A stretch of 64,000 nt of DNA from Isoptericola jiangsuensis. Its GTDB lineage: Bacteria > Actinomycetota > Actinomycetes > Actinomycetales > Cellulomonadaceae. Positions within the stretch are counted from its first letter, which is position 1; each line of letters begins with the position of its first letter. Below are positions 11,468-64,000 of this stretch, one piece after another. The translations under genes were made by a program, and so were the position numbers. The notes beneath the pieces are model-generated. The model saw only the letters and a program-made list of their open reading frames with translations. It did no database searches and was not told the origin of the DNA. The DNA is taken from NCBI RefSeq assembly GCF_002563715.1, contig NZ_PDJJ01000001.1, positions 496,001 through 560,000 on the forward strand, written 5' to 3'.

Positions 11468-15489
<4,022 letters not shown>

Positions 15490-51499: not shown

Positions 51500-52438
51500 T
51501 CAGGCGGGGGCGTACTGCACGTCGGTCCCCGCGCGGGCGAAGCCCAGCCGGTCGTACGTGCGCCGGGCGGCCGTGTTGTCCCCGTCGACGTACAGCACGC
51601 CGCGGGCGCAGCCGACGGCCGCCAGGTGCGCCAGGCCCGCCGCGGTGAGGGCCGTGCCCAGGCCGCGACCCTGCGCGGCCGGCGCCGTGCCGACCGCGTA
51701 GATCTCGCCGTCGACCCGGCCCGCCTCCTGGCCCGGCTCGACCTTGGTCCACACCGACCCGACCAGCGCGCCGTCCGGGTCCTCCAGCAGCAGGAACCCC
51801 GCCGGGTCGAACCAGGGCTCGGCCGCGCGGTCGTGCAGGTCCGCGACGGTCAGGCGGCCCTGCTCCGGGTGTCCCGCGAACGCCGCCGCGTTGAGCGCCA
51901 CCCAGGCGTCGTCGTCCGCGCCGGGGCGGAACGGCCGCAGCACGTGGTCGGCGGGCAGGGCGGGGGCCGGGAGGTCGGCGTCCAGCGGGCGGGCAAGGAA
52001 CAGCAGCTCGCGCGCCGCCGTCAGGCCGCGGGCCGCGGCGAAGCCGCGCGCGGCCTCCAGGTCGCCGTGCGCCCAGAGGCGCAGCGGCTTGCCGCGCTGG
52101 TCCGGCGCCCCCGACCGCTCCGGCAGGCGTGCGTCCCGCTGCGCGGTGCGCAGCAGCAGCGACCCGATCCCGCCGCGCCGGTGCTCCGGGTGCACCACCA
52201 GCTCGGCGCTCGCCACGTCGCCCGACCGGTCCACCTGCAGGTAGCCCGCCGTCGCGCCCGCGGAGGTTCGCGCCACGACGTGCGTCGTGGCGGCGTCGTC
52301 CGCCCCGAGGTGCAGCAGCGGCTGCTCGGACAGCGGCGCGACGCCGTCGTGGCGCGCGGCGTCGTCCGCCAGCGCACGCACGGCGTCCTGCGCGGCAGGG
52401 CTCAACGGACCGATCTCGACCGGGACGGGAAGGCGCAC
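51500..52438 (-). CDS. mshD: Mycothiol synthase MshD
   Basis: A 312-residue tandem GNAT acetyltransferase, the usual MshD length. The N-terminal half has [16 protein letters not shown], the C-terminal half [21 protein letters not shown], both acetyl-CoA-binding R/QxxGxG/A loops; EIYAVG and [19 protein letters not shown] are strongly MshD-like. It acetylates the cysteine amine of desacetylmycothiol, the last step to mycothiol, the actinobacterial glutathione analogue. The start is GTG at 52438; the longer upstream frame is a shadow of the AraC-type gene. It is divergent from that gene. Confidence 0.92.
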
Positions 52439-52532
52439 CCCCCTATCCTGCCTCCTGCCGGCGACAGGGCGAAGATCACGGTGCGACGACGGCCACGGAC
52501 GGCCCGGCCTCCCGGTGGTAGCGTCACCCGTC

Positions 52533-53372
52533 ATGGCGATCCTGGCAGCGGGCAGCTCGCCGCCGACCGGGACGAGCCCGCGGGCGGACGAGGTCCCCGC
52601 AGCACCTCCGCAGCGACGCGGCGCCTCCGGCCTGTGGCCCGAGGCCGACCGCCTCCTCGACGCGCTCTCGCCGGAGCTGGTGCTGCTGCTCGACGACCTG
52701 TCCGCCGTCATGTTCTGCGCGAAGGACGTCACCGGGCGGTACGTGCTGGTCAACCGGACGTTCGTCGACCGCGCCGACCGCCGGTCCCCGCGCGACGTCG
52801 TGGGCCGCGCGTCCGTGGAGCTGTTCGCCCCCGAGCTCGCGGAGCGCTACGACGAGCAGGACGAGTACGTGCTGCGCGAGGGCTGGCCGCTGCGCAACGA
52901 GCTGGAGCTCATCCGCAACCTGCGGGGCGAGCCCGGCTGGTACCTCACCACGAAGATCCCGGTGCGCCGCGACGGCGAGGTCGTCGGCCTGGTCTCGACC
53001 TCCCGCGACCTGCGCACGGGCGACGTCGACGACCAGGTCATCGGGTCCCTCACCCGGGTGGTGCAGCTGGTCGACGACCGGCTCGACGAGCGGCTCGCGC
53101 TGGCCGAGCTCGCGACGGCCGCCGGTTGCCCGACGAGCGTCCTGGAGCGGCGGATGCGCCGCGTGTTCGGGCTCTCGCCCAAGCAGTTCCTGCTGCGCGC
53201 CCGGGTGGACCGGGCGACCTCCCTGCTCACGGGCTCGGACCTGCCGCTGGCGGAGGTCGCGGTCCGCTCCGGGTTCTACGACCAGCCGTCGTTCACGCGC
53301 ACGTTCGTGCGGCTCACCGGCGAGACGCCGGCCGTCTACCGGCGCAAGAGCCGGGCGCTCGACGCCTCCTGA
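52533..53372 (+). CDS. PAS-domain AraC-family regulator
   Basis: A 279-residue two-domain regulator. Residues about 50-165 are a PAS_4-like sensor ([47 protein letters not shown], and [24 protein letters not shown]). Residues about 180-275 are the double helix-turn-helix AraC domain ([34 protein letters not shown], then [32 protein letters not shown]). It stands just upstream of, and in the same direction as, the amidohydrolase operon and probably activates it in response to the substrate. TAGCGT lies 8 nt before the ATG. Confidence 0.88.
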
Positions 53373-53447
53373 CCGTTCCCGCCGCGAGGCACCTGGTCAT
53401 TCACACGGTTGCGCCCGGACGGTTACGCGTCCGAAACAGCGGCCCCC

Positions 53448-53478
53448 TAGGTTTCCTGAATGTTCCTCTGATCAACAT
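53448..53478 (+). promoter_or_regulatory. Amidohydrolase operon promoter with ATGTT-N9-AACAT operator
   Basis: TAGGTT (53448-53453) fits the -10 consensus. Seven nt after it begins the inverted repeat ATGTT (53460-53464), 9 nt, AACAT (53474-53478), within AATGTT...AACATT. An identical half-site and spacing pattern overlaps the start of the flavin reductase gene at 62247-62265. The operator would cover the transcription start, a repressor arrangement. Confidence 0.65.
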
Positions 53479-53518
53479 TGGGACTCCGTGAAGGCCTCGG
53501 CCCTGGGGAGGTTGCGCC

Positions 53519-54892
53519 GTGCAGGACGTCGCCCAGCACCACCGGTTCCACGTCGGCAGCGCCGACGGCACGACCCTGCCGACCGGCGCGCGGGTCGCCG
53601 CCCTCACCGGCGTGCGGACCCCCGACGGGACGCCGGTCGACGTCGAGATCTCCGCGGGCACCGTCACCGCCGTGGTCCCCGCCGGGACCGACACCCGCCC
53701 GGACGGCGACGGCCTCCGGCTCGACGCCACCGGCTGGCGCGTCCTGCCCGCCGCGTGCGAGCCGCACGCCCACCTCGACAAGACCCACACCGCGTCGCGC
53801 GTGCCCGCCGGCACCGGCCTCGACCTCGTCGGCGCCGTCACCAGCTGGCGCGAGATCGCCCGCGACGTCGACGGGCCCGACGTCGCCGCCCGCGCGCGCC
53901 GCGCCGTCGAGCGCTACGCGGTGCGGGGCACCACCACGATCCGCACCCACGTCGACGCGCCCGCCGAGGGCGACCCGCTGCGCCTGCTCGACCCGCTCCT
54001 CGCGCTGCGCGACGAGGTCGCCGGCAGCGTCGCCCTCCAGGTGTGCCTCCTCGGTGGCTCCCACACGAGCGACGACGTCTACCTCGAGGCCGCCCGGCGC
54101 GGCGTCGACGTGCTCGGCGGCTGCCCGCACCTGTCGCCCGACCCCGCCGCGGAGATCTCCCGGGTGCTCGACCTCGCCGAGCGGACGGGCCTGCCCGTCG
54201 ACCTGCACGCCGACGAGCAGACGGCCCTGCCGCCGCACGGGCAGCTCCTCGACGTGGCGGACCTCGCGCAGCAGGTGCTGGCCCGCGGGCTCCAGCAGCG
54301 GGTGACCGCCAGCCACGTCGTGCGGCTCGGCTCCCTGCCGCCGGACCGGCTCGGGCCCGTCGTCGACCTGCTCGCCCGCGCCGGGCTCGGCGTCGTCACG
54401 CTCCCCATCACCAACCTGTACCTCCAGGGCCGCGACAGCACGCACCTCGTGCCCCGGGGCCTGACGGCCGTGCGGGCGCTCCTCGACGCCGGCGTGCCGG
54501 TCGCGGCCGGGGCCGACAACGTGCGCGACCCCTTCAACCCCGCCGGCACGTGCGACCCGTTCGAGACGACGTCGCTCCTCATGACCGTCGCCCACCTGGG
54601 CGCCGACGAGGCGCTCGCCGCCGTGACGTCCGGTGCGCGCGCGGTGCTCGGCCTGCCCGCCGCCGGTCCCGTCGCCGGGCACCGGGCCGACCTCCTGCTC
54701 GTCCCCGACGTCCCGCTGGGGGACGTCCTCGCGGGGGGCGAGACCGCACGCGTGGTGATCACCGGGGGGCGCGTCGTCGCCGACACCCGCGTCACCCGGG
54801 CGCTGGCCCTCACCGGGACGGCCCCCACCGCCCCGGCGCACGACCCCTGGCTGACCGAGTCCGTCCCGACGATCCACGAGGTGACCCCGTGA
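53519..54892 (+). CDS. Amidohydrolase, cytosine deaminase (CodA)-like
   Basis: A 457-residue metal-dependent amidohydrolase. The CodA-type metal and catalytic residues are intact: EPHAHLDKTHT (HxH), DLHADEQ (His and catalytic Glu), TASHVVRLGSL (His) and AGADNVRDPFNPAGTCDP (Asp). This branch deaminates or hydrolyses cytosine, isoguanine, N-isopropylammelide or related N-heterocycles; the actual substrate is not known. The GTG start has GGGGAGG 7 nt upstream. First gene of an operon with an importer, an oxidase, a creatininase-type hydrolase and a second amidohydrolase; its stop overlaps the ATPase start (GTGA). Confidence 0.87.
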   Translation: MQDVAQHHRFHVGSADGTTLPTGARVAALTGVRTPDGTPVDVEISAGTVTAVVPAGTDTRPDGDGLRLDATGWRVLPAACEPHAHLDKTHTASRVPAGTGLDLVGAVTSWREIARDVDGPDVAARARRAVERYAVRGTTTIRTHVDAPAEGDPLRLLDPLLALRDEVAGSVALQVCLLGGSHTSDDVYLEAARRGVDVLGGCPHLSPDPAAEISRVLDLAERTGLPVDLHADEQTALPPHGQLLDVADLAQQVLARGLQQRVTASHVVRLGSLPPDRLGPVVDLLARAGLGVVTLPITNLYLQGRDSTHLVPRGLTAVRALLDAGVPVAAGADNVRDPFNPAGTCDPFETTSLLMTVAHLGADEALAAVTSGARAVLGLPAAGPVAGHRADLLLVPDVPLGDVLAGGETARVVITGGRVVADTRVTRALALTGTAPTAPAHDPWLTESVPTIHEVTP

Positions 54893-55650
54893 CCACGACG
54901 ACCCCGCGCCCGCCGTCCCTGACCCGCACCCTCGTGCTCGACGACGTCACCAAGCAGTTCGACACCGGCACCGTCGCGCTCGAGGACGTCACCCTCCAGG
55001 TCGCCGCCGGGGAGTTCGTCTCCGTCGTGGGCCCGTCGGGCTGCGGCAAGTCGACGCTGCTGCGCCTCGCGTCCGGCCTCGACGACGTCACCGCCGGCGG
55101 CATCGAGGTGAACGCGCACTCCACGTCCTACGTGTTCCAGGAGCCGACGTTGCTGGAGTGGCGCAGCGCCCTGCGCAACGTCGAGATCGTCGGCGAGCTG
55201 CGCGGCCGGGGCAAGGCGGACCGCCGCCGCGCCGCCCGGGAGGCGCTCGACCTCGTCGGCCTCACCGGGTTCGAGAAGCAGCACCCGCGCCAGCTCTCCG
55301 GCGGCATGCGGATGCGCGTGTCGATCGCCCGCGCGCTCGTCGCCGAGCCCGACCTCGCCCTGTTCGACGAGCCCTTCGGCGCGCTCGACGAGATCACGCG
55401 CCTGCACCTGCAGACCGAGCTGCAGCGGCTCTTCGCCCTCAAGCAGTTCGCCGGCCTGTTCATCACCCACTCCGTGTCCGAGGCCGTCTACCTGTCGACG
55501 CGCGTCATCGTCATGAGCGGCCGCCCGGGCCGGGTCGTCGCCGACATCCCGGTGCCCTGGTCCTACCCCCGGCCGCCGGAGCTCCGGTTCGACCCGGAGT
55601 TCGCCGCGCTCACCGGCGAGGTCTCCGCCGCCCTCGGGGAGCACTCATGA
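54889..55650 (+). CDS. ABC importer ATPase, SsuB/TauB type
   Basis: A 253-residue nucleotide-binding subunit: Walker A GPSGCGKST near residue 46-54, the short TSYVFQEPTLLEW Q-loop typical of nitrate/sulfonate/taurine-type importers, signature LSGGMRMR, Walker B LALFDEPFGALD and ITHSVSEAVYLS. It energises uptake through the adjacent permease. GTG start and ATGA end both overlap neighbours by 4 nt, so the operon is tightly coupled. Confidence 0.93.
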   Translation: MTTTTPRPPSLTRTLVLDDVTKQFDTGTVALEDVTLQVAAGEFVSVVGPSGCGKSTLLRLASGLDDVTAGGIEVNAHSTSYVFQEPTLLEWRSALRNVEIVGELRGRGKADRRRAAREALDLVGLTGFEKQHPRQLSGGMRMRVSIARALVAEPDLALFDEPFGALDEITRLHLQTELQRLFALKQFAGLFITHSVSEAVYLSTRVIVMSGRPGRVVADIPVPWSYPRPPELRFDPEFAALTGEVSAALGEHS

Positions 55651-56618
55651 GCACCCCGGCGACCGACCAGACCGCGACCCCGACCGCACCGCAGGAGGTC
55701 CCCGTGCCCACGACCGTCCTCCCCCCGACGGCCACCACGCCCCCCGCCGACCCGGCGCCCGCGACCGCCGACGCCCCGCCCGCGAAGCCCGCCGGCGGCA
55801 CCCCGTCCCGCGGCGGCGCCGGTCGCCGGACCGCCGCGAAGGTCGCTGCGAAGGTCGGGCCCACGACCGCCGCCGTCGGCGGCCTCGTGGCGATCTGGTA
55901 CGCCGTCAGCTACCTCGTGCTGCCGCCCGAGCGCCAGTTCCTCCTGCCGCCCCCGCACGAGGTCCTCGCGAACACGCTGGGCAACCCGAACATCATGGGC
56001 CCGATGCTCGACGCGCTGTGGCAGACCGTGGGCGTCGCGCTGTGCGGGCTCGCCGTCGCCGTCGTCCTCGGCATCGGCTACGCCGTGGTGATGGTCCAGT
56101 CCTTGTGGGCCGAGAAGATCCTCTACCCGTACGCCGTCATCCTGCAGACCATCCCCATCCTCGCGCTCACCCCGCTCATCGGGATCTGGATGGGCTACGG
56201 CTTCAGCGCCCGCATCGTGGTCTGCGTCATCATCGCGCTGTTCCCCATGATCGCGAACACCCTGTTCGGCCTGCAGTCCGCCGGCGCCATGGCGCACGAC
56301 CTGTTCACCCTCAACAAGGCGACCCCGGCGCAGCGGCTGTTCAAGCTCCAGTTCCCCGCCGCGCTGCCGTCCATCTTCACCGGGCTGCGCAACGCCGCCG
56401 GGCTGAGCGTCATCGGCGCCATCGTCGGCGACTTCTTCTTCCAGCAGGGCTCGCCCGGCATCGGCGGCCTCCTGCGGACCTACACCCTGCGGCTCAACAT
56501 GGACGCCCTGTTCATGGCGATCATCCTCACCGCGCTGTTCGGCGTCCTCGTGTTCTCCGTCTTCGCGGCGCTCGACCGGGCCGTCATCGGCCGCTGGTAC
56601 GGCCGCCCCGCGCGCTGA
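55647..56618 (+). CDS. ABC importer permease, SsuC/TauC type
   Basis: A 323-residue permease. The first 70 residues are a Pro/Ala/Thr-rich, probably disordered cytoplasmic extension with a basic end (RRTAAKVAAKVG), unusual for the family. Six membrane segments follow; the EAA-like loop reads FTLNKATPAQRLFKLQFPAALPSIFTGLRNA near residue 225-255. It forms the channel with the preceding ATPase and the following lipoprotein. A 145-nt gap with a hairpin separates it from the lipoprotein gene. Confidence 0.92.
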   Translation: MSTPATDQTATPTAPQEVPVPTTVLPPTATTPPADPAPATADAPPAKPAGGTPSRGGAGRRTAAKVAAKVGPTTAAVGGLVAIWYAVSYLVLPPERQFLLPPPHEVLANTLGNPNIMGPMLDALWQTVGVALCGLAVAVVLGIGYAVVMVQSLWAEKILYPYAVILQTIPILALTPLIGIWMGYGFSARIVVCVIIALFPMIANTLFGLQSAGAMAHDLFTLNKATPAQRLFKLQFPAALPSIFTGLRNAAGLSVIGAIVGDFFFQQGSPGIGGLLRTYTLRLNMDALFMAIILTALFGVLVFSVFAALDRAVIGRWYGRPAR

Positions 56619-56672
56619 CGACGCCTCGCCCCGACCCGCTCGCACCAGCACGTCCCCCTCGCCCCACCCCTC

Positions 56673-56694
56673 CCGACGGCCGCCACGCCGTCGG
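56673..56694 (+). promoter_or_regulatory. Intra-operon hairpin before the binding-protein gene
   Basis: CCGACGGC-CGCCAC-GCCGTCGG is an 8-bp stem in the only sizeable gap of the operon. Such elements often stabilise or raise the mRNA of the binding protein relative to the membrane subunits; an internal promoter is not evident. Confidence 0.4.
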
Positions 56695-56763
56695 CGGCAC
56701 GACTCCCACCCCCGGCGCGCCCCCGGCGTGCCCGGAACCGCCTCCACCCACCGAGGAGCACCC

Positions 56764-57942
56764 ATGTCCCACCGCCGTCGTCCCCTGCTGGCCCTGCTGG
56801 CCGTGGTCCCGCTCGCCGCCCTCACCGCGTGCAGCGCCGACACCGTCGAGGCCGCCCCGGCCGAGCAGGTCGACGTCCCCGCCGCCGAGGCGGGCGGGCC
56901 GCTCGACCTCGCCGACGTCTGCCCCGCCACCGTCGTCCTCCAGCAGGACTGGCAGCCCGAGGCCGAGCACGGCGCGATGTACGCGCTCGTCGGCTCCGAC
57001 CACACCGTCGACACCGACACGAAGTCCGTCACCGGGTCCCTCGTCGCGCAGGGCGTCGACACCGGCGTGGACGTCGAGGTGCGTCCCGGCGGTCCGAACG
57101 TCAACTTCCAGCCCGTGCCGTCGCTGATGTACCTCGACGACTCCATCCTGCTCGGCGCCGTCACCACCGACGCGCAGATCACGGCGCTCGCGGACAACCC
57201 GGTCGTCACGGTCGCGTCGCAGCTCACCACCAGCCCGCAGATCGTCATGTGGGACCCGGACAGCCACGGCGGCGCCACCACCATCGAGCAGGCGGCCGCC
57301 GGCGGCGACCCGCTGGTCTCCTCCGGCGACGTGTTCCCGCGCCTGCTCGAGTCGCAGGGCCTCATCACGGCCGACCAGATCGACCTCAGCTACGAGGGCA
57401 CGCCGCAGCGGTTCGTGTCCGACCCGAGCATCATGCAGCAGGGCTTCGCCACCGCTGAGCCCTACATCTACGAGAACGAGATCCCCCAGTGGGGCAAGCC
57501 GGTCGGCTACCAGCTGCTGGCCGAGGTCGGCTACACCGTCTACCCGGAGGCGCTCACCGTCCGCGCGGACAAGCTCGAGGAGAACGCCGACTGCCTCGCC
57601 AAGCTCGTCCCGATCATGCAGCAGTCGCAGATCGACTACCTCGAGGACCCGGACGCCACCAACGCCCTCATCGTCGACCTCGTCGAGCAGTACCAGACCG
57701 GCTGGACCTACTCCGAGGGCGTCGCCGACTTCTCCGTCCAGGCGCAGAAGGACCTCGGGATCGTCACCGACGACCCGGCCAGCGGCGTCTTCGGGCAGAT
57801 CGACCCCGACCGCGTGGCCGAGATCGTCGACACGTTCGGCCCGATCCTCGTCGACGCCGGCCAGATCGAGTCCGCGGACATCGACCCCGCGACCCTGTTC
57901 ACCAACGAGTTCATCGACGGCTCCATCTCGATGGGCAGCTGA
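56764..57942 (+). CDS. ABC importer binding lipoprotein, NMT1/THI5-like
   Basis: A 392-residue lipoprotein: signal peptide LLALLAVVPLAALTAC with lipobox Cys23. The mature part has the NMT1/SsuA-like layout (LGAVTTDAQITAL, VMWDPDSHGG, GYEGTPQRF-like segment, TAEPYIYENEIPQWGKPVGYQLL, and VQAQKDLGI). Proteins of this group bind small N-containing or sulfonated molecules such as pyrimidine precursors of thiamin, riboflavin or hydroxymethylpyrimidine. The ligand here is unknown. GAGGAG precedes the ATG, and the FAD oxidase gene follows after 8 nt. Confidence 0.88.
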   Translation: MSHRRRPLLALLAVVPLAALTACSADTVEAAPAEQVDVPAAEAGGPLDLADVCPATVVLQQDWQPEAEHGAMYALVGSDHTVDTDTKSVTGSLVAQGVDTGVDVEVRPGGPNVNFQPVPSLMYLDDSILLGAVTTDAQITALADNPVVTVASQLTTSPQIVMWDPDSHGGATTIEQAAAGGDPLVSSGDVFPRLLESQGLITADQIDLSYEGTPQRFVSDPSIMQQGFATAEPYIYENEIPQWGKPVGYQLLAEVGYTVYPEALTVRADKLEENADCLAKLVPIMQQSQIDYLEDPDATNALIVDLVEQYQTGWTYSEGVADFSVQAQKDLGIVTDDPASGVFGQIDPDRVAEIVDTFGPILVDAGQIESADIDPATLFTNEFIDGSISMGS

Positions 57943-57950
57943 GGAGCACC

Positions 57951-59309
57951 ATGACCACCACCACGCAGACCGTCCCCGAGCGGGCGGCGCTCGCCACCGC
58001 GCGCATCACGGAGCTCCTCGGCCCCGACGTCGTCACCACCGACCCCGAGCTGCTGCTCAAGACGTCGGCGGACTGGTCCCGGATGTCGCCGATCCTCCAG
58101 GAGAAGGTGCCGGCCGGCCGGTACATGCCGGACGCCGTCGTGCGACCCCGCACGGCCGACGACGTCGCCCGCGTCCTCCAGGTCGCCTACGAGCACGACG
58201 TCCCCGTCACCCCGCGCGGGTCCGGCACGGGCAACTACGGCCAGGCCACCCCGTTCGACGGCGGCCTCGTGCTGGACCTGCGCGGCCTCGACACGATCAC
58301 CGTCAACCCGTCGGGCACGGTCAGCGCCGGGGCCGGGGCGAAGATCACCGCGATCGACGCCGCGGCGCGCGCCGCGGGCCGCGACATCTGGATCTACCCC
58401 TCCACCAAGGGCTCGACCATCGGCGGGTTCGTCGGCGGCGGGTCCGCCGGCACCGGCACGATCGAGCACGGCTCCACCTCCGACGGGTACGTCGTGGCCG
58501 TGACCGTCGCCCCCATGGACGGCAGCGGCACCACGTTCACCGTCCGCGGCGCCGACGCCATGCCGTACGTGCACGTGTACGGCGTCACGGGCGTCGTCGT
58601 CGAGGTCGAGGTCGCCACCGAACCCGCGCGGGAGTGGGTCGCCGTCTACGCGGCGTTCGACGACTGGGCGTCCATGGTGCAGGTGCACCGGTCCCTCCTG
58701 GACCTGCCGGTGCTGCCGCGCCTGGCGTCGGCCGACCCGCCGGCGCTGGTGCCCAGCCTGCCCGCCGCCGTCGAGCTCGACCCGACCCGGCACAGCCTGC
58801 GCGTCATCGCCGAGGCCTCCACCGTCGCCGAGGTCGAAGCCCGCGTGCTCGCCGCCGGCGGGACCGTCGTGGCCACGTTCGCGGACTACGCCGAGACCGA
58901 CCGGCTCTCCTCGATGTCGTACAACCACCCCGTCTACTTCCTCCAGAAGGCGCACCCCGAGCGCACCTGGTTCCACATGGAGACCGGCGGGAAGGCCCAC
59001 TGGGACGACCCCGACGCCGTCCGGGCCGTCTACGACGGCGAGGTCCACCTCCACCTGGAGCTCATGGGGCACGCGCCGCTCGCGATGGTCGTCGCGGACT
59101 ACGTCTCCGAGGAGCAGGTGCTCGACGGCATCCCGCGGCTCGAGGCGCTGGGGCTCGGCGTCCACTCCCCGCACCAGTGGTACGTCGACCGGCACGTCGA
59201 GCTCGCCCGCGCCACGGCGCGCTCCACCGACCCGAAGGGGCTGCTCAACCCCGGCAAGCTGGTCGACTCCCCGCCGGAGGACACCCGCGTCAACATCGGG
59301 GTCCGCTGA
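57951..59309 (+). CDS. FAD-linked oxidase (GlcD/PCMH-type FAD-binding)
   Basis: A 452-residue flavoprotein. DAVVRPRTADDVARVLQVAYEHDVPVTPRGSGTG (residues about 64-97) and the glycine-rich YPSTKGSTIGGFVGGGSAGTG (about 147-168) are the FAD-binding PCMH fold; GVTGVVVEVEVAT ends it. The C-terminal half is the cap with WFHMETGG. Such enzymes oxidise alcohols, alpha-hydroxy acids or heterocyclic C-H/C-N bonds. Within this operon it probably oxidises the imported compound or an intermediate. GAGGAG lies upstream of the ATG; the stop overlaps the next start (TGATG). Confidence 0.87.
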   Translation: MTTTTQTVPERAALATARITELLGPDVVTTDPELLLKTSADWSRMSPILQEKVPAGRYMPDAVVRPRTADDVARVLQVAYEHDVPVTPRGSGTGNYGQATPFDGGLVLDLRGLDTITVNPSGTVSAGAGAKITAIDAAARAAGRDIWIYPSTKGSTIGGFVGGGSAGTGTIEHGSTSDGYVVAVTVAPMDGSGTTFTVRGADAMPYVHVYGVTGVVVEVEVATEPAREWVAVYAAFDDWASMVQVHRSLLDLPVLPRLASADPPALVPSLPAAVELDPTRHSLRVIAEASTVAEVEARVLAAGGTVVATFADYAETDRLSSMSYNHPVYFLQKAHPERTWFHMETGGKAHWDDPDAVRAVYDGEVHLHLELMGHAPLAMVVADYVSEEQVLDGIPRLEALGLGVHSPHQWYVDRHVELARATARSTDPKGLLNPGKLVDSPPEDTRVNIGVR

Positions 59310-60148
59310 TGGGCGCGCGCGTGCCCGGCGCCCCGGCCGTCCCGCGGTTCCTCGACATGACGTGGCCCGAGGTGGCCGCCCTGCCCGCCGGGACGGTCGC
59401 CGTCCTCCCGCTCGGCGCCGTCGAGCAGCACGGCCCCCACCTGCCCGTGTCGACCGACCTCGTCACCGCGAGCGAGGTCTCCGCCGCCGCGGTCGAGGCC
59501 GTCACGCAGGCCGGGACCGCCTCGCTCGTGCTCCTGGAGCCGCTGGCGTACACCAAGTCCGACGAGCACGCCGGGTTCCCCGGCACCGTCTGGCTGTCCT
59601 GGGACACCCTGATGCGCGTCCTGGTGGACGTCGGTCGCTCGCTGGCGGCGTCCGGCATCGAACGGCTCGTGTTCGTCAACGGGCACGGCGGCAACTCCGC
59701 GCTCGGGCAGGTGGCCAACCGGGAGCTGCGCCGACGCTTCGGCCTGCGCACCTTCTTCGCCCACGTGTCCACCCCGCGGGACCAGGGCGGTGCCCCCGTC
59801 GCGGCGGGGGAGCACGGCCTGGGCGTGCACGGCGGGCACTCCGAGACGTCGCTCATGCTCCACCTGCGGCCCGAGCTCGTCCATCTCGACCTCGCCGAGC
59901 GGCGCGTGCCGGAGGACCTGCTCGTCCACGAGCGCATCGGGTTCGGCAAGCCCGTGTCCTTCGGGTGGCTGTCGAGCGACTTCGGCCCCGACGGGCACGT
60001 CGGCGACCCGACGACGGCCACCGCCGAGCAGGGCAAGGTCCTGTTCGAGCACGCCGTCGCCGAGCTCGCCGCCACGCTCGTCGAGGCCTCGACGTTCACC
60101 ACCCCGGCCGACGGCGCCGCCGGGCTCGACCCGCGGGACCGCGGGTGA
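59309..60148 (+). CDS. Creatininase-family amidohydrolase
   Basis: A 279-residue creatininase-fold hydrolase. PLGAVEQHGPHLPVSTD carries Glu, His and Asp metal ligands; FVNGHGGNSALGQVANREL and HGGHSETS the remaining His and Glu. Family members open cyclic amides (creatinine) or cleave formamides (FAPy deformylase, MftE). The substrate here is unknown, but position between an FAD oxidase and an amidohydrolase suggests hydrolysis of a ring amide or formamide intermediate. The start overlaps the oxidase stop by 1 nt and the stop overlaps the next GTG (GTGA). Confidence 0.9.
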   Translation: MGARVPGAPAVPRFLDMTWPEVAALPAGTVAVLPLGAVEQHGPHLPVSTDLVTASEVSAAAVEAVTQAGTASLVLLEPLAYTKSDEHAGFPGTVWLSWDTLMRVLVDVGRSLAASGIERLVFVNGHGGNSALGQVANRELRRRFGLRTFFAHVSTPRDQGGAPVAAGEHGLGVHGGHSETSLMLHLRPELVHLDLAERRVPEDLLVHERIGFGKPVSFGWLSSDFGPDGHVGDPTTATAEQGKVLFEHAVAELAATLVEASTFTTPADGAAGLDPRDRG

Positions 60149-61521
60149 GCGGTGCCGCGGCCCGGCTCGTCGTGCGCGGGGCGCTCGCGCTCCGCCCGGG
60201 TCCGGACCTCCTCGGGGGCCCGGACCCGGCGCCGGGCGGGGACGGGCCCGGCGACGTCGTCGTCGGGCCCGACGGCCGGGTGTCCGCCACGGGGCCCGGG
60301 GTCGGCGCGGCCGTCGCCGCGACCGAGGAGCTCGACGCGACGGGCTGCGTGGTGACCCCGGGCCTCGTCAACGCCCACCACCACCTGCTCCAGACGGCGT
60401 TCCGCACCCTGCCGGGCACGCGCGGTGTGCCGATGCGCGAGTGGCTGCCGACCATGGCGGCGGCGTACACCGCCGCGCACGTCGACGCCGGTCTGGTGGG
60501 GGCCGCGGCCCGTGCCGGACTCGCCGAGGCGCTGCTGTGCGGCGTGACGACGGTGGCCGACCACCACCTGACCTGGCCCGCGCACGTCGGCGTCGAGGAC
60601 TCGGTGGACCTGGCGCGCGCGGCGGCCGGTGCCGCCGAGGAGCTGGGTGCCCGCCTCGTGCTGGTGCGCGGCACCGCCGGGGACGACCCGGAGCGCGCCG
60701 CCCTCAGCGCGGACGCGATCGCCGGGGCGCTGGTCGACGGGTGCCCCGGTGGGGTGCGCGCCGACGGCCGGGTGCAGGTCGCGGTCGGACCCGCGGGCGT
60801 GCACAGCGACCGCGAGGAGACGTTCCGCCTGCTGGGCGAGGTCGCGGCGCGGCGCGGGCTGCGGCGCCGGACCCAGGCGAACGAGCAGGTCGACGTCGCG
60901 GTCGCGCTCGCACGGTACGGCCGCCGCCCGCTCGACCTCCTGGCGGACTGGGGCTGGCTCGCCCCGGACGTCACGGTGGCCCACCTGTGCGAGGTCACGG
61001 ACGACGAGGTCGCGCGGTTCGCCGCGTCGGGCGCGACCGCGACCCACGCGCCCGGCTGCGACGTGCCGATGGGCTGGGGCGTCGCGCCGGTGGCGCGGCT
61101 GCTCGCGGCCGGGGTGCGGGTCGGGCTCGGCACCAGCGGCGGCGGGTCCAACGACGCCGGCCACCTGCTGGCCGACGCCCGCCTGGCGATGCAGGTGTCC
61201 GGGCTGGTGGGTCGCCAGCTCGCCGCGCGCGAGGTGCTCGACGCCGCGACCGCGGGCTCCGCGGACGGGCTCGGGCGGCCCGAGCTGGGGCGGCTCGCCC
61301 CCGGGACGGCGGGCGACCTGTGCGTGTGGGACGTCTCCGGCGTGGCCGACGCCGGCGTCGCGGACCCGGTCGCGGGGCTGCTGTGGGCGTCACCCGGGCG
61401 CCGGCCGCGGCACGTCGTCGTCGCGGGCCGGGTGGTGGTGCGCGACGGGCGCCTCGTGGCGGCCGACGAGCGCGAGATCGTGGCGGGGCTCAGCGCGCGG
61501 GTCGCGCCAGCCGCTGCTTGA
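60145..61521 (+). CDS. Amidohydrolase, 8-oxoguanine deaminase/AtzB-like, altered metal site
   Basis: A 458-residue amidohydrolase. VTPGLVNAHHHLLQTAFR (His78, His80) and the VTTVADHHLTW block are typical of GuaD/8-oxoguanine deaminase/TrzN enzymes. Two expected ligands differ: the HxxE position reads QANE (Gln244, Glu247 kept) and the strand-8 Asp of GLGxDG reads GLGTSGGGSND (Ser331). His280 (VAHLCE) is kept. Either the enzyme uses a changed or absent metal site or it belongs to a branch I do not know. GTG start overlaps the creatininase stop by 4 nt; the 3' end overlaps the convergent XRE gene by 32 bp. Confidence 0.82.
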   Translation: MSGAAARLVVRGALALRPGPDLLGGPDPAPGGDGPGDVVVGPDGRVSATGPGVGAAVAATEELDATGCVVTPGLVNAHHHLLQTAFRTLPGTRGVPMREWLPTMAAAYTAAHVDAGLVGAAARAGLAEALLCGVTTVADHHLTWPAHVGVEDSVDLARAAAGAAEELGARLVLVRGTAGDDPERAALSADAIAGALVDGCPGGVRADGRVQVAVGPAGVHSDREETFRLLGEVAARRGLRRRTQANEQVDVAVALARYGRRPLDLLADWGWLAPDVTVAHLCEVTDDEVARFAASGATATHAPGCDVPMGWGVAPVARLLAAGVRVGLGTSGGGSNDAGHLLADARLAMQVSGLVGRQLAAREVLDAATAGSADGLGRPELGRLAPGTAGDLCVWDVSGVADAGVADPVAGLLWASPGRRPRHVVVAGRVVVRDGRLVAADEREIVAGLSARVAPAAA

Positions 61522-62125
61522 CGGTGAGCAGGCGGTAGTAGCCGCCGTCGGCGCTCGCCCAGCGGTGCCGGGTCCCGCCACGGTAGGAGGCGGAGTCCCC
61601 GGCCTCCAGGACGTCGACGGTGCCGTCGAGGTCCAGCAGGACCCGGCCCTCCACGATGTAGACGAACTCCTCCTCCTCGTGCTCCCAGTGGTCGCCGAGG
61701 TCCTGCGAGGTCCCCGTGTACTCCAGGGGGTCGAACGGGTGGTCCCCGGGGGGCGCGAGCGCACGGACGCTGCCGCCGCCCGAGGACGCCGACGCCTCGT
61801 CGGTCCGCCGCACGACGTGGGACGTCCCGGAGACCGGCCCGACGGCGTCGGCGAGCAGCATCTGCTGGGTGGTCCCGAGCGTCGTGGCCACGCGGAACAG
61901 CGACGACATGCTCAGGCGGGCGCGGCCCCGCTCGACCTGGCTGAGGAACGAGTGCGAGAGCCCGGTCGCCGCGGCGAGCTGGACGAGGGTCAGACCCTCG
62001 GAGTGCCGCAGGCTGCGGATACGCCGACCCAGGCGTTCGACGGACCGGTCGAGCGGGTCGGGGCCGGGGGAGCGGTCCCGGGACGGCGGTGTCTCCTCGG
62101 CGGGGGCGTCCGACATGGCGGCCAT
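61490..62125 (-). CDS. XRE-cupin transcriptional regulator
   Basis: A 211-residue regulator. Residues about 33-88 are an HTH_3 domain (RRIRSLRHSEGLTLVQLAAATGLSHSFLSQVERGRARLSMSSLFRVA in pieces); residues about 135-205 form a cupin (HEHEEEEFVYIVEGRVLLDLDG-type strand, DSASYRGGTRHRW) that binds a small effector. It lies between the two operons sharing the ATGTT-N9-AACAT operator and is the best candidate to bind it. The ATG at 62125 is chosen because TACGAT ends 6 nt upstream (leaderless). Another ATG lies 9 nt downstream. Confidence 0.88.
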   Translation of the reverse strand: MAAMSDAPAEETPPSRDRSPGPDPLDRSVERLGRRIRSLRHSEGLTLVQLAAATGLSHSFLSQVERGRARLSMSSLFRVATTLGTTQQMLLADAVGPVSGTSHVVRRTDEASASSGGGSVRALAPPGDHPFDPLEYTGTSQDLGDHWEHEEEEFVYIVEGRVLLDLDGTVDVLEAGDSASYRGGTRHRWASADGGYYRLLTVKQRLARPAR

Positions 62126-62131
62126 GGGTCG

Positions 62132-62137
62132 ATCGTA
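62132..62137 (-). promoter_or_regulatory. -10 element of the XRE-cupin gene
   Basis: TACGAT on the minus strand, 6 nt before the ATG, indicates a leaderless transcript. Confidence 0.5.
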
Positions 62138-62234
62138 CGGGCGCGCCGACGCCGTGCCGCCGCAGGTGAGGCGGTCGCGCCGAGTCGTAACAGACGTCGT
62201 GGGTCGGCGTGACGCCGCCGAAACATCCGCCCTG

Positions 62235-62265
62235 CACGATGGACGTATGTTGATGACATCAACAT
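62235..62265 (+). promoter_or_regulatory. Flavin reductase promoter with 9-1-9 palindromic operator
   Basis: CACGAT (62235-62240) is a -10-like element; 7 nt later begins ATGTTGATGACATCAACAT (62247-62265), a perfect 19-bp palindrome that includes the start codon. Its outer half-sites ATGTT and AACAT with 9-nt spacer match the amidohydrolase operon operator exactly, and ATCAACAT is common to both right halves. Confidence 0.75.
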
Positions 62266-62792
62266 CGCGCACGGAGTCCGTCACCGACGGATTCCGGGAC
62301 GCGATGGCCGGGCTGGCGAGCGGGGTGTGCGTGGTGACGACGTCGGCGGGAGGCAGCCCCGCCGGGCTGACGACCACCGCGGTGATGAGCGTGAGCCTCG
62401 ACCCGCCGCTCGTCGCCGTCGGCGTCGGCCGCACCAGCCGCACCCTCGCCGCCCTGCGCGAGGCCCGCGCGTTCGTCCTGCACGTGCTGCACCACGACCG
62501 GGAGGCGACCGCCGCCGTGTTCGCCTCCCGCTCCGCCGACAAGTTCGCCGGGCTGGAGGTGCGCCCCGGCCGCCACGGCATCCCCGTGCTGGCCGACGAC
62601 GCCCGCTACGCGCTCGAGTGCACCACCTGGCAGGAGGTCGACGCCGGCGACCACGTCCTGCTGCTCGGCCGGGTGGACGAGGTCCACCGCGCACCCGCTC
62701 ACGAGCCCCACGGCGCCACCGCCCGCGCGCTCGTCCACTTCGAACGGACCTTCCACCGCGTCGGCGGACCCGCCGCGGAGGCCGTGGCGTGA
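62247..62792 (+). CDS. Flavin reductase-like FMN-binding protein
   Basis: A 181-residue flavin_reduct-domain protein: FRDAMAGLASGVCVVTTSAGGSPAGLTTTAVMSVSLDPPLVAVGV is the typical N-terminal half, RSADKFAGLEV and the C-terminal LLLGRVDEVHRA complete the split beta-barrel. Such proteins supply reduced FMN/FAD to two-component monooxygenases, or act as one themselves. The ATG is inside the palindromic operator and 6 nt after the -10, so it is leaderless; an ATG two codons later is possible. Its stop overlaps the following oxidoreductase start (GTGA). Confidence 0.88.
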   Translation: MLMTSTSRTESVTDGFRDAMAGLASGVCVVTTSAGGSPAGLTTTAVMSVSLDPPLVAVGVGRTSRTLAALREARAFVLHVLHHDREATAAVFASRSADKFAGLEVRPGRHGIPVLADDARYALECTTWQEVDAGDHVLLLGRVDEVHRAPAHEPHGATARALVHFERTFHRVGGPAAEAVA

Positions 62793-64000
62793 ACCCACCG
62801 ACCGCGCCCTGGGTCCGCCCCGGGGACGCCGGGTACGAGGACGCCCGCCGGCGCCTGTCCGTCTCCGCCGTCGTCCCGCCCGACCGGCCCGCCGCCGTGG
62901 TCCGTCCGCGGGACACGGAGGGCGTCGTCGCGGCGGTGCACGCCGCCCGCGCCCACGACCTGCCCCTGACCGTCCGCTCCGGCGGGCACGGCACCGCCTT
63001 CACGGCCCTGCGCTCCGGCGCGCTCGCGCTCGACCTGTCGGGGCTGGACCACGTCCGGGTGGACCCGGCCGCCGGCACGGCCGACGTCGGGCCGGGGGCC
63101 ACGTCGCTCGCGGTCGCCGAGGCGCTCGCCGGCACCGGCTGGTCGTTCCCCGTGGGGCACAAGGGGGACGTCGCCCTGGGCGGCTTCCTCCTCGCCGGCG
63201 GCAACGGCTGGAACCAGGGGGACTGGGGGAGCGCCTGCGAGTCGGTGCTCTCTGCCGAGGTCGTCCTCGCCGACGGCAGCGTCACCAGGATCGACGCCGC
63301 CTCGGGCGACGCGTTCGCCGCCCTGCGGGGCGCCGGACCCGCGTTCCCCGCCGTGGTGACCGGGTACCGGTTGCGCCTCCACCGCGAGCCCGTGCTCCGG
63401 GCGCGCACCGTCGGCTTCCGTGCCGACACGTCGCCCGCGCTGGCCGAGGTCGGGGCGTGGCTCGACGCCCTCGCCGCTCGGGTGCGGCCCGAGGTCGAGC
63501 TGACCGTCGTGCTGGGCACCGGGGCGTCCGGGACCGAGGCCGTGGTGCGCGCCACGGCGTTCGGGCGGGACGCCGCGCACGCCGACGACCTCCTGGCGAC
63601 CCTCGACGACGACGTCCCGGAGCGCGCCACCACCTACGTGCGGACCACGACCACGATCCCCGCGCTGCTGCGCGGCGACACCGCCCCGCCCGGCCTCGCG
63701 ACCGTCGCCCAGCAGGCGTGGACCCGCGCCGGGTACGCCGACGTCCTGCCGCTGCTCGCCGGCCCGATGGCGTCCGCGCCGTCCTCGCGCTCCACCGTGC
63801 TGGTCAGCTCGGCCTCCTACCGGCGCTCCGCGCCGCCCGCCACGGAGCCGCTGCACCGACCGCTCGGCACGCTGACCGTCGCCGCGTACGCCGTCTGGGA
63901 GGCAGGCGACGGCGACGGGTCCGCCGCGGCGTGGCCGACCGCCACCACCGAGGCGCTCGCCGGTCTGGTCACCGGTCACTACGTGGGCGAGGCGGACCTG
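62789..64000 (+). CDS. FAD-binding (BBE-like) oxidoreductase, 3' end outside window
   Basis: 404 codons are open to the window edge with no stop. PLTVRSGGHGTAFTALRSGALALDLSGLD near residues 56-84 is the PCMH FAD-binding domain; the His of RSGGH is the covalent 8-alpha-FAD attachment residue in berberine-bridge-type oxidases, while the Cys of bicovalent members is absent (SFPVGHKGDVALGGF). Probably a secondary flavin oxidase acting with or beside the flavin reductase. GTG start overlaps the reductase stop by 4 nt, so the two form one operon under the palindromic operator. Completion of the cap domain cannot be seen. Confidence 0.85.
   Translation, partial: MNPPTAPWVRPGDAGYEDARRRLSVSAVVPPDRPAAVVRPRDTEGVVAAVHAARAHDLPLTVRSGGHGTAFTALRSGALALDLSGLDHVRVDPAAGTADVGPGATSLAVAEALAGTGWSFPVGHKGDVALGGFLLAGGNGWNQGDWGSACESVLSAEVVLADGSVTRIDAASGDAFAALRGAGPAFPAVVTGYRLRLHREPVLRARTVGFRADTSPALAEVGAWLDALAARVRPEVELTVVLGTGASGTEAVVRATAFGRDAAHADDLLATLDDDVPERATTYVRTTTTIPALLRGDTAPPGLATVAQQAWTRAGYADVLPLLAGPMASAPSSRSTVLVSSASYRRSAPPATEPLHRPLGTLTVAAYAVWEAGDGDGSAAAWPTATTEALAGLVTGHYVGEADL

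Follow-up and report, generated by a model that had tools for sequence, protein, structure and literature searches.

How might two neighbouring operons, which by their sequences look made for the uptake and breakdown of a nitrogen compound, be switched on together? The question arises in a stretch of 64,000 nucleotides (nt) of the actinobacterium Isoptericola jiangsuensis (contig NZ_PDJJ01000001.1, positions 496,001 to 560,000), called the window below, where the same inverted repeat, ATGTT-N9-AACAT, precedes both operons and a gene for an XRE-cupin protein lies between them. The answer proposed here, with a probability of about 0.82, is a promoter with two inputs: GlnR would activate both operons, and the XRE-cupin protein would repress them until a metabolite of the pathway releases it.

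The repeat is exact at both places where the original prediction, made from the letters of the DNA, had located it, namely 53460-53478 (promoter P1, plus strand) and 62247-62265 (promoter P2, plus strand). The P2 site, ATGTTGATGACATCAACAT, is indeed a perfect palindrome of 19 base pairs (bp) that covers the predicted flavin reductase start codon (ATG at 62247); at the P1 site, ATGTTCCTCTGATCAACAT, palindromy is confined to the outer arms. Up to one mismatch, the window contains two matches, against 0.01 expected from shuffles. Elsewhere in the genome, a single contig of 4,041,252 bases, there is no further exact copy and none with exactly one mismatch, the listing ordered by mismatches passing from zero directly to two; at two mismatches or fewer there are 63 places including these two, and 28 for a reversed control pattern. 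A motif common across the genome by chance, the outcome that would have spoken against the original prediction, is thus not what was found, with two exact places in 4.04 Mb.

As an account of the shared promoter element the repeat was correct and incomplete, since a GlnR box 22 nt before each copy had been missed. The pattern GTnAC-N6-GAAAC matches the window only twice, once per promoter, against 0.11 expected from shuffles. The predicted box of P1 (53422-53437, plus strand) is GTTACgcgtccGAAAC, GTTAC and GAAAC around gcgtcc, and that of P2 (62209-62224, plus strand) is GTGACgccgccGAAAC, GTGAC and GAAAC around gccgcc. From the end of each box it is 22 nt to the operator and 10 nt to a proposed -10 hexamer, TAGGTT at P1 (53448-53453, plus strand) and the weaker CACGAT at P2 (62235-62240, plus strand), which is likewise placed in loci L094 and L098. 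Six nucleotides separate each hexamer from the repeat, in keeping with the earlier claim that the repeat starts 7 nt after the -10. The geometry at both promoters is GTnAC-N6-GAAAC, N10, the -10 hexamer, N6 (N5 in most relatives) and ATGTT-N9-AACAT. A possible upstream a-site lies 22 nt before the main box at P1 (TTCAC, 53400-53404, plus strand; weak, near the upstream half-sites of relatives) and at P2 (GTAAC, 62187-62191, plus strand; to be taken with the same caution). Of a second a-b pair 22 bp upstream, only this a-site is recognisable at the window promoters. A position weight matrix (PWM) gave scores of 32.3 for P1, 11.4 for P2 and 4.5 for the next place, a ranking that is partly circular because the matrix came from matches chosen by their letters; a third, weak match at 12851 (minus strand) reads like coding sequence and was dropped.

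In Streptomyces coelicolor the GlnR box is gTnAc-n6-GaAAc, the consensus that the P1 box matches, and one box suffices at gdhA (PMC10704036). The a2 site of amtB is described just at the -35 position (PMC5826061), in line with the overlap of a-site and -35 position seen here.

With this arrangement, GlnR, the actinobacterial activator under nitrogen limitation, would bind the box at -35 and recruit RNA polymerase, and a dimer of the XRE-cupin protein would occupy the palindrome over the start (approximately +1 to +19) and block transcription, until a pathway metabolite, bound by the cupin domain, releases the protein. Because the activation would come from GlnR and the block would persist until the ligand appears, expression would require both a shortage of nitrogen and the presence of the compound. 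An ABC (ATP-binding cassette) importer, several amidohydrolases and flavoenzymes would then free ammonia from a nitrogen compound of cyclic type. Both regulators belong to known kinds, and a global activator joined to a local repressor is textbook logic.

One line of evidence comes from a scan that used no gene information. The composite pattern ATGTT-N9-AACAT-N16..28-GTTTC-N6-GTNAC was sought in a collection of 84,980 genomes, from which the source genome was possibly left out, and gave 79 matches, 62 of them actinobacterial, with record titles naming 27 genera, and 17 not. The gap between operator and box in the actinobacterial matches was 21 nt in 50, 22 nt in five, 18 nt in three, 28 nt in three and 20 nt in one; in the 17 others the gaps were scattered. 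A homologue of the XRE-cupin gene was present at 56 of the 62 actinobacterial matches, in all 56 divergent from the site, and at none of the 17 others, so that the assignment of this protein as the regulator, which the original prediction had offered as inference, is supported by comparison. The first recognised gene after the promoter was amidohydrolase A in 48 of the 62, flavin reductase in five and the ATPase in one; in five it was more than 900 nt away and in three there was none. A TAnnnT hexamer stands exactly 10 nt past GAAAC in 58 of the 62 (11 nt in two), compared with none of the 17 others at 10 nt and one at 11 nt, and this counts as unasked-for support because the pattern did not require it. 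The operator follows the -10 with a gap of 5 nt in 50 of the 62 promoters. Over-represented upstream of the box are TTAAC at about -21 and GAAAT at -11, which resemble the published a-b-a-b pattern of GlnR sites, with TTAAC shifted by about one base. Over the 62 promoters the operator has the consensus ATGTTGAnnnnATCAACAT, in which the search pattern itself dictates the outer ten letters.

Orthologous loci agree with this. A comparison of 18 genomes of the genus, the source genome included (E ≤ 1e-30 for the XRE-cupin protein and ≤ 1e-60 for amidohydrolase A), found an XRE-cupin orthologue in two genomes and amidohydrolase A in the same two. Genome G004, taken as Krasilnikoviella flava, contains exactly two exact operators, each preceding one of the orthologous operons; at the second promoter the a-site of the GlnR box deviates by one letter (GTGAT), and the gap is again 22 nt. 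The motif is therefore conserved before orthologous operons, at both G004 promoters and at further actinobacterial loci, and the P1 operator recurs unchanged in G004, L051, L119 and L120. A second scan went from regulator to site in 396 genomes of the order, drawn from a larger group, with seven candidates scored per genome and E ≤ 1e-35. Homologues of the XRE-cupin protein occur in at least 22 of these genomes, the source included, and among the 21 non-self loci the 900 bp or so upstream of the gene hold an exact operator in seven, one with a single mismatch in two and one with two mismatches in one.

The gene of the proposed repressor of both promoters (61490-62125, minus strand) lies between the operons, as originally predicted. 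Its product joins an N-terminal XRE-type helix-turn-helix (HTH) to a C-terminal cupin domain in one protein (HTH_31, HTH_3 and Cupin_2, all above cut-offs), it co-occurs with the operator, and it shares two further traits of its family: both operons adjoin its gene, and a palindromic site within the usual range of about 15-25 bp lies near the predicted start, here 19 bp shortly after the -10, the palindrome at P1 being imperfect. It is not an equivalog of PuuR by the NCBIfam model (42.5 bits, cut-off 211). The recognition helix varies in part with the operator, as it would if the XRE protein reads this DNA directly. Where GA stands at positions 6-7 of both operator arms (49 rows, with the same genome twice in some cases) the helix is of the type SH[PS]F[LIV]SQ, CC in both arms (seven rows, about four distinct, from a Kineosporia clade) goes with THGFLSK, and SH[PS]FLSQ is found in the nine rows where one arm differs, as well as in the window protein, whose P1 operator has CC in one arm. 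The bare mask ATGTT-N9-AACAT was rejected as specific to the XRE-cupin protein. Genomes G005, G012 and G014 have one such place each, with other inner letters, and in 3-kb stretches fetched around these places no window protein was encoded; the mask is thus unspecific to this regulator and the composite largely specific.

The other input also has its candidate. The genome holds nine exact copies of GTnAC-N6-GAAAC, two of them here, and none of a reversed control. The open reading frames chosen after five of the other seven boxes encode a glutamine synthetase (L158), an amidohydrolase (L157), a zinc carboxypeptidase (L154), a beta-galactosidase (L155) and an ATP-grasp protein (L160); a family scan of those after boxes L156 and L159 returned no family. 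Before glutamine synthetase two box-like pairs stand in tandem, the exact box being the distal one; the proximal pair reads GCCAC-N6-GTAAC, and GTAAC is followed after 10 nt by TAGCGT, the same distance as at P1 and P2. A GlnR-like protein, as a GlnR regulon with such boxes before its genes needs, is encoded at L126 (G000:C1:3519264-3520037). Its best PDB matches are 8hih (6e-87, titled 'Transcriptional regulatory protein'), which we take to be GlnR, and 8hig, and the receiver domain has a match at 8e-27 to 4o1h, 'Transcription regulator GlnR'; no GlnR model of NCBIfam gave a match.

Several observations weigh against the two-input promoter. Six of the 62 actinobacterial matches lack the XRE-cupin gene in the fetched stretch (L051, L080, L106, L111, L119 and L120). 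Three of these, L051, L106 and L120, share a contig with a second composite match that has it (L098, L061 and L094, respectively), and for L119, from K. flava, it stands at the other promoter of that genome; L080 and L111 are unexplained. The matches are moreover related by descent. In the order scan, 11 of the 21 non-self XRE loci have no operator within about 900 bp, operator-like sites farther away being seen in most of them, and only on later inspection, and the amidohydrolase A loci L137 and L139 lack the strict composite, L148 having only a degenerate one. In L137 and L139 a one-mismatch operator does lie probably at the start of the amidohydrolase A match, about 1.2-1.3 kb away from its far end, and in L139 GAAAC-N10-TAGCAT comes before it; L148 reads TTTAC-N6-GAAAT-N10-TAGCGT-N5 with a two-mismatch operator. 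This reading is post hoc and is left out of the support. The match of helix and operator comes from one clade and so amounts to about a single evolutionary event; nor is the reading of the inner letters strict, since operators with one differing arm, P1 included, go with the ordinary SH[PS]FLSQ helix. The -10 hexamer of P2 is poor, the upstream GlnR half-sites are weak at both window promoters, the whole upstream half reaching only the top 4.4-4.5% of window positions, and the reading frames after the seven other boxes do not all resemble nitrogen genes.

Another protein might bind the palindrome. An AraC-PAS protein (52377-53372) is encoded directly upstream of P1 and a GntR-FCD protein (L004:3660-4343) downstream of the second operon, so that both adjoin the regulon; a GntR gene with 77% identity also lies near the locus in K. 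flava, and a perfect 19-bp palindrome would suit a GntR dimer. Across the 79 composite loci, however, the operator tracks the XRE-cupin gene and not these two, of which no homologue occurs at any locus within the fetched stretches, which are limited to 8 kb (L041, 20 kb) and would miss a distant gene; the AraC homologue is also absent from the K. flava loci L041, L046 and L119. Both proteins were rejected as binders on this co-occurrence, and either is very improbable in that role. The XRE-cupin protein itself could instead activate, or act as a roadblock at the start site that tunes GlnR output without a small-molecule signal. In favour of this, NceR, an activator of the XRE family, is named in the reference list of PMC12724383; the constant place of the operator just after the -10 nevertheless suits blocking, and the XRE-cupin proteins tested in Pseudomonas aeruginosa are inhibitors (PMC7901475), which together make activation or a signal-free roadblock unlikely.

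The box, in turn, might be read by another regulator of the OmpR type, MtrA or PhoP, in place of GlnR. Sites of MtrA and PhoP resemble those of GlnR, the genome encodes MtrA (L128, above the NCBIfam cut-off) and a PhoP-like protein (L131), and several of the other exact boxes precede genes without an obvious nitrogen role. On the other side, the box agrees letter for letter with the S. coelicolor GlnR consensus (PMC10704036), one of the nine exact boxes precedes glutamine synthetase, whose promoter likewise keeps 10 nt between the last repeat unit and a TAnnnT hexamer, and the operons look like nitrogen scavenging; a reader other than GlnR has, on these grounds, a small chance of being right. 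That the elements reflect chance or a recent promoter duplication without regulatory meaning, for which the presence of only two copies in this genome could be cited, is close to negligible, as the spacer sequences of P1 and P2 differ while elements and distances stay, and a similar geometry is found in 62 promoters of 27 named genera. Activation by GlnR with repression by the XRE-cupin protein remains the preferred account.

A bolder extension of it is doubtful. The composite could be a portable cassette in which the distance between GlnR and the XRE-cupin protein is set by mutual contact or by joint contact with the polymerase, so that the pair computes an AND of nitrogen shortage and substrate presence, and which has spread as a unit through the actinobacteria. 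In the sister operon of other genera, described below, box and -10 are about two helical turns further apart.

The proposed control can be compared with known systems. The P. aeruginosa XRE-cupin proteins act as local inhibitors at palindromic sites next to their own genes (PMC7901475), and DbuR of Pseudomonas putida, divergent from its operon, protects a stretch that includes a 20-bp palindrome and the -10 (PMC12724383). Like PuuR of Escherichia coli, PauR, PsdR and ErfA of P. aeruginosa and DbuR, the window protein combines HTH and cupin domains and is encoded beside its proposed targets, an arrangement that is often divergent, with a palindrome of about 20 bp at the promoter and with genes for uptake or breakdown of small molecules as targets (PMC7901475, PMC12724383). 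The operator here differs from the DbuR palindrome (PMC12724383) and, unlike those of the other XRE-cupin repressors, is paired with a GlnR box at a fixed distance. The promoters are like the GlnR-activated glnA and amtB promoters in box consensus and in the placement of the box at -35 (PMC10704036, PMC5826061), and unlike them in carrying a second, pathway-specific operator on the start site; the second input of amtB is PhoP, which competes for a GlnR box (PMC5826061). The GlnR regulon of Mycobacterium smegmatis includes C-N hydrolases and a deaminase (PMC3662644), and a creatininase-family gene of the same species rises under nitrogen limitation (PMC4617892). No account of a fixed pairing of GlnR and an XRE-cupin protein was found in the literature searched, a search of narrow limits with most subscription journals outside it. 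On the proposed reading, two unannotated operons and an anonymous XRE-cupin protein become a testable regulon with two named inputs, and the composite offers a DNA signature by which this regulon can be sought in further genomes.

The first operon spans 53519-61521, all on the plus strand. It begins with amidohydrolase A (53519-54892; PF07969, PF01979), cytosine deaminase-like, with the NCBIfam cytosine deaminase as its best model at 196 bits against a cut-off of 403, and continues with an ABC transporter ATPase (54889-55650; PF00005), nearest to taurine, sulfonate and nitrate types with NCBIfam scores below the cut-offs, and a permease (55647-56618; PF00528). The product of 56764-57942 had no match in Pfam or NCBIfam; from its operon position, and from homologues at the same place in relatives, it is the probable substrate-binding protein of the transporter. 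Then follow a GlcD-like FAD-binding oxidoreductase (57951-59309; PF01565), a creatininase-family amidohydrolase (59309-60148; PF02633, 4e-70) and amidohydrolase B (60145-61521; PF01979), 8-oxoguanine deaminase-like, with 252 bits against a cut-off of 532 for the 8-oxoguanine deaminase, its best NCBIfam model. The second operon, also on the plus strand, begins with the flavin reductase gene (62247-62792; PF01613), followed by an FAD-binding oxidoreductase (62789 to 64000 and past the window end; L004:789-2210) and, outside the window, a third amidohydrolase (L004:2207-3649). It ends at about 65649 (L004:3649), so that the regulon is somewhat longer than the 11 kb or so of the original prediction, which had missed the end of this operon.

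The enzymes are reminiscent of operons for the breakdown of creatinine, purines and pyrimidines, with creatininase-family, cytosine deaminase-like and 8-oxoguanine deaminase-like members beside an importer; unlike in those, the enzymes scanned here score below the NCBIfam cut-offs for named functions (the third amidohydrolase lay outside that scan). Comparison with Pfam, NCBIfam and the literature did not settle the identity of the substrate. Three amidohydrolases and a creatininase-family enzyme suggest that it is perhaps a cyclic amide or amidine.

The reading frame of the flavin reductase opens with the ATG that belongs to the operator (62247-62249), as it does in L094, L098 and L106, and a second in-frame ATG lies 6 nt on, at 62253. 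Since in the window the first ATG lies about at the expected transcription start, its mRNA may lack a leader. Amidohydrolase B and the XRE-cupin gene run towards each other and overlap by 32 bp at their 3' ends (61490-61521), so that readthrough would yield antisense RNA.

The Arthrobacter loci L068, L102 and L116 carry two overlapping tandem operators, the first of which overlaps a -10-like hexamer, TATGTT. In G014, a palindrome ATGTTGTC...GACAACAT (L045:1501-1519), whose outer letters equal ATGTT-N9-AACAT, precedes a gene and probably serves another regulator; the start of that gene reads like a TetR regulator, which we presume it to encode.

Nine of the 11 XRE loci without a nearby operator belong to a sister operon in which no amidohydrolase A homologue occurs within 19 kb, and whose XRE proteins also have the SHPFLSQ helix. 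Places with zero or one mismatch to the operator lie 3.7-4.0 kb upstream of the XRE gene in seven of them (L138, L141, L143-L147), L142 has one with three mismatches and L140 none; the place in L141, which lacks the surroundings common to the other sister operons, may be chance. In this ABC-transporter operon (L138, L142-L147) a GlnR-like box (TTTAC or near, N6, GAAAC) lies 8-10 nt before the operator-like palindrome, and TAnnnT follows 4 nt after it; the same two elements thus occur in a different order, box, operator and -10.

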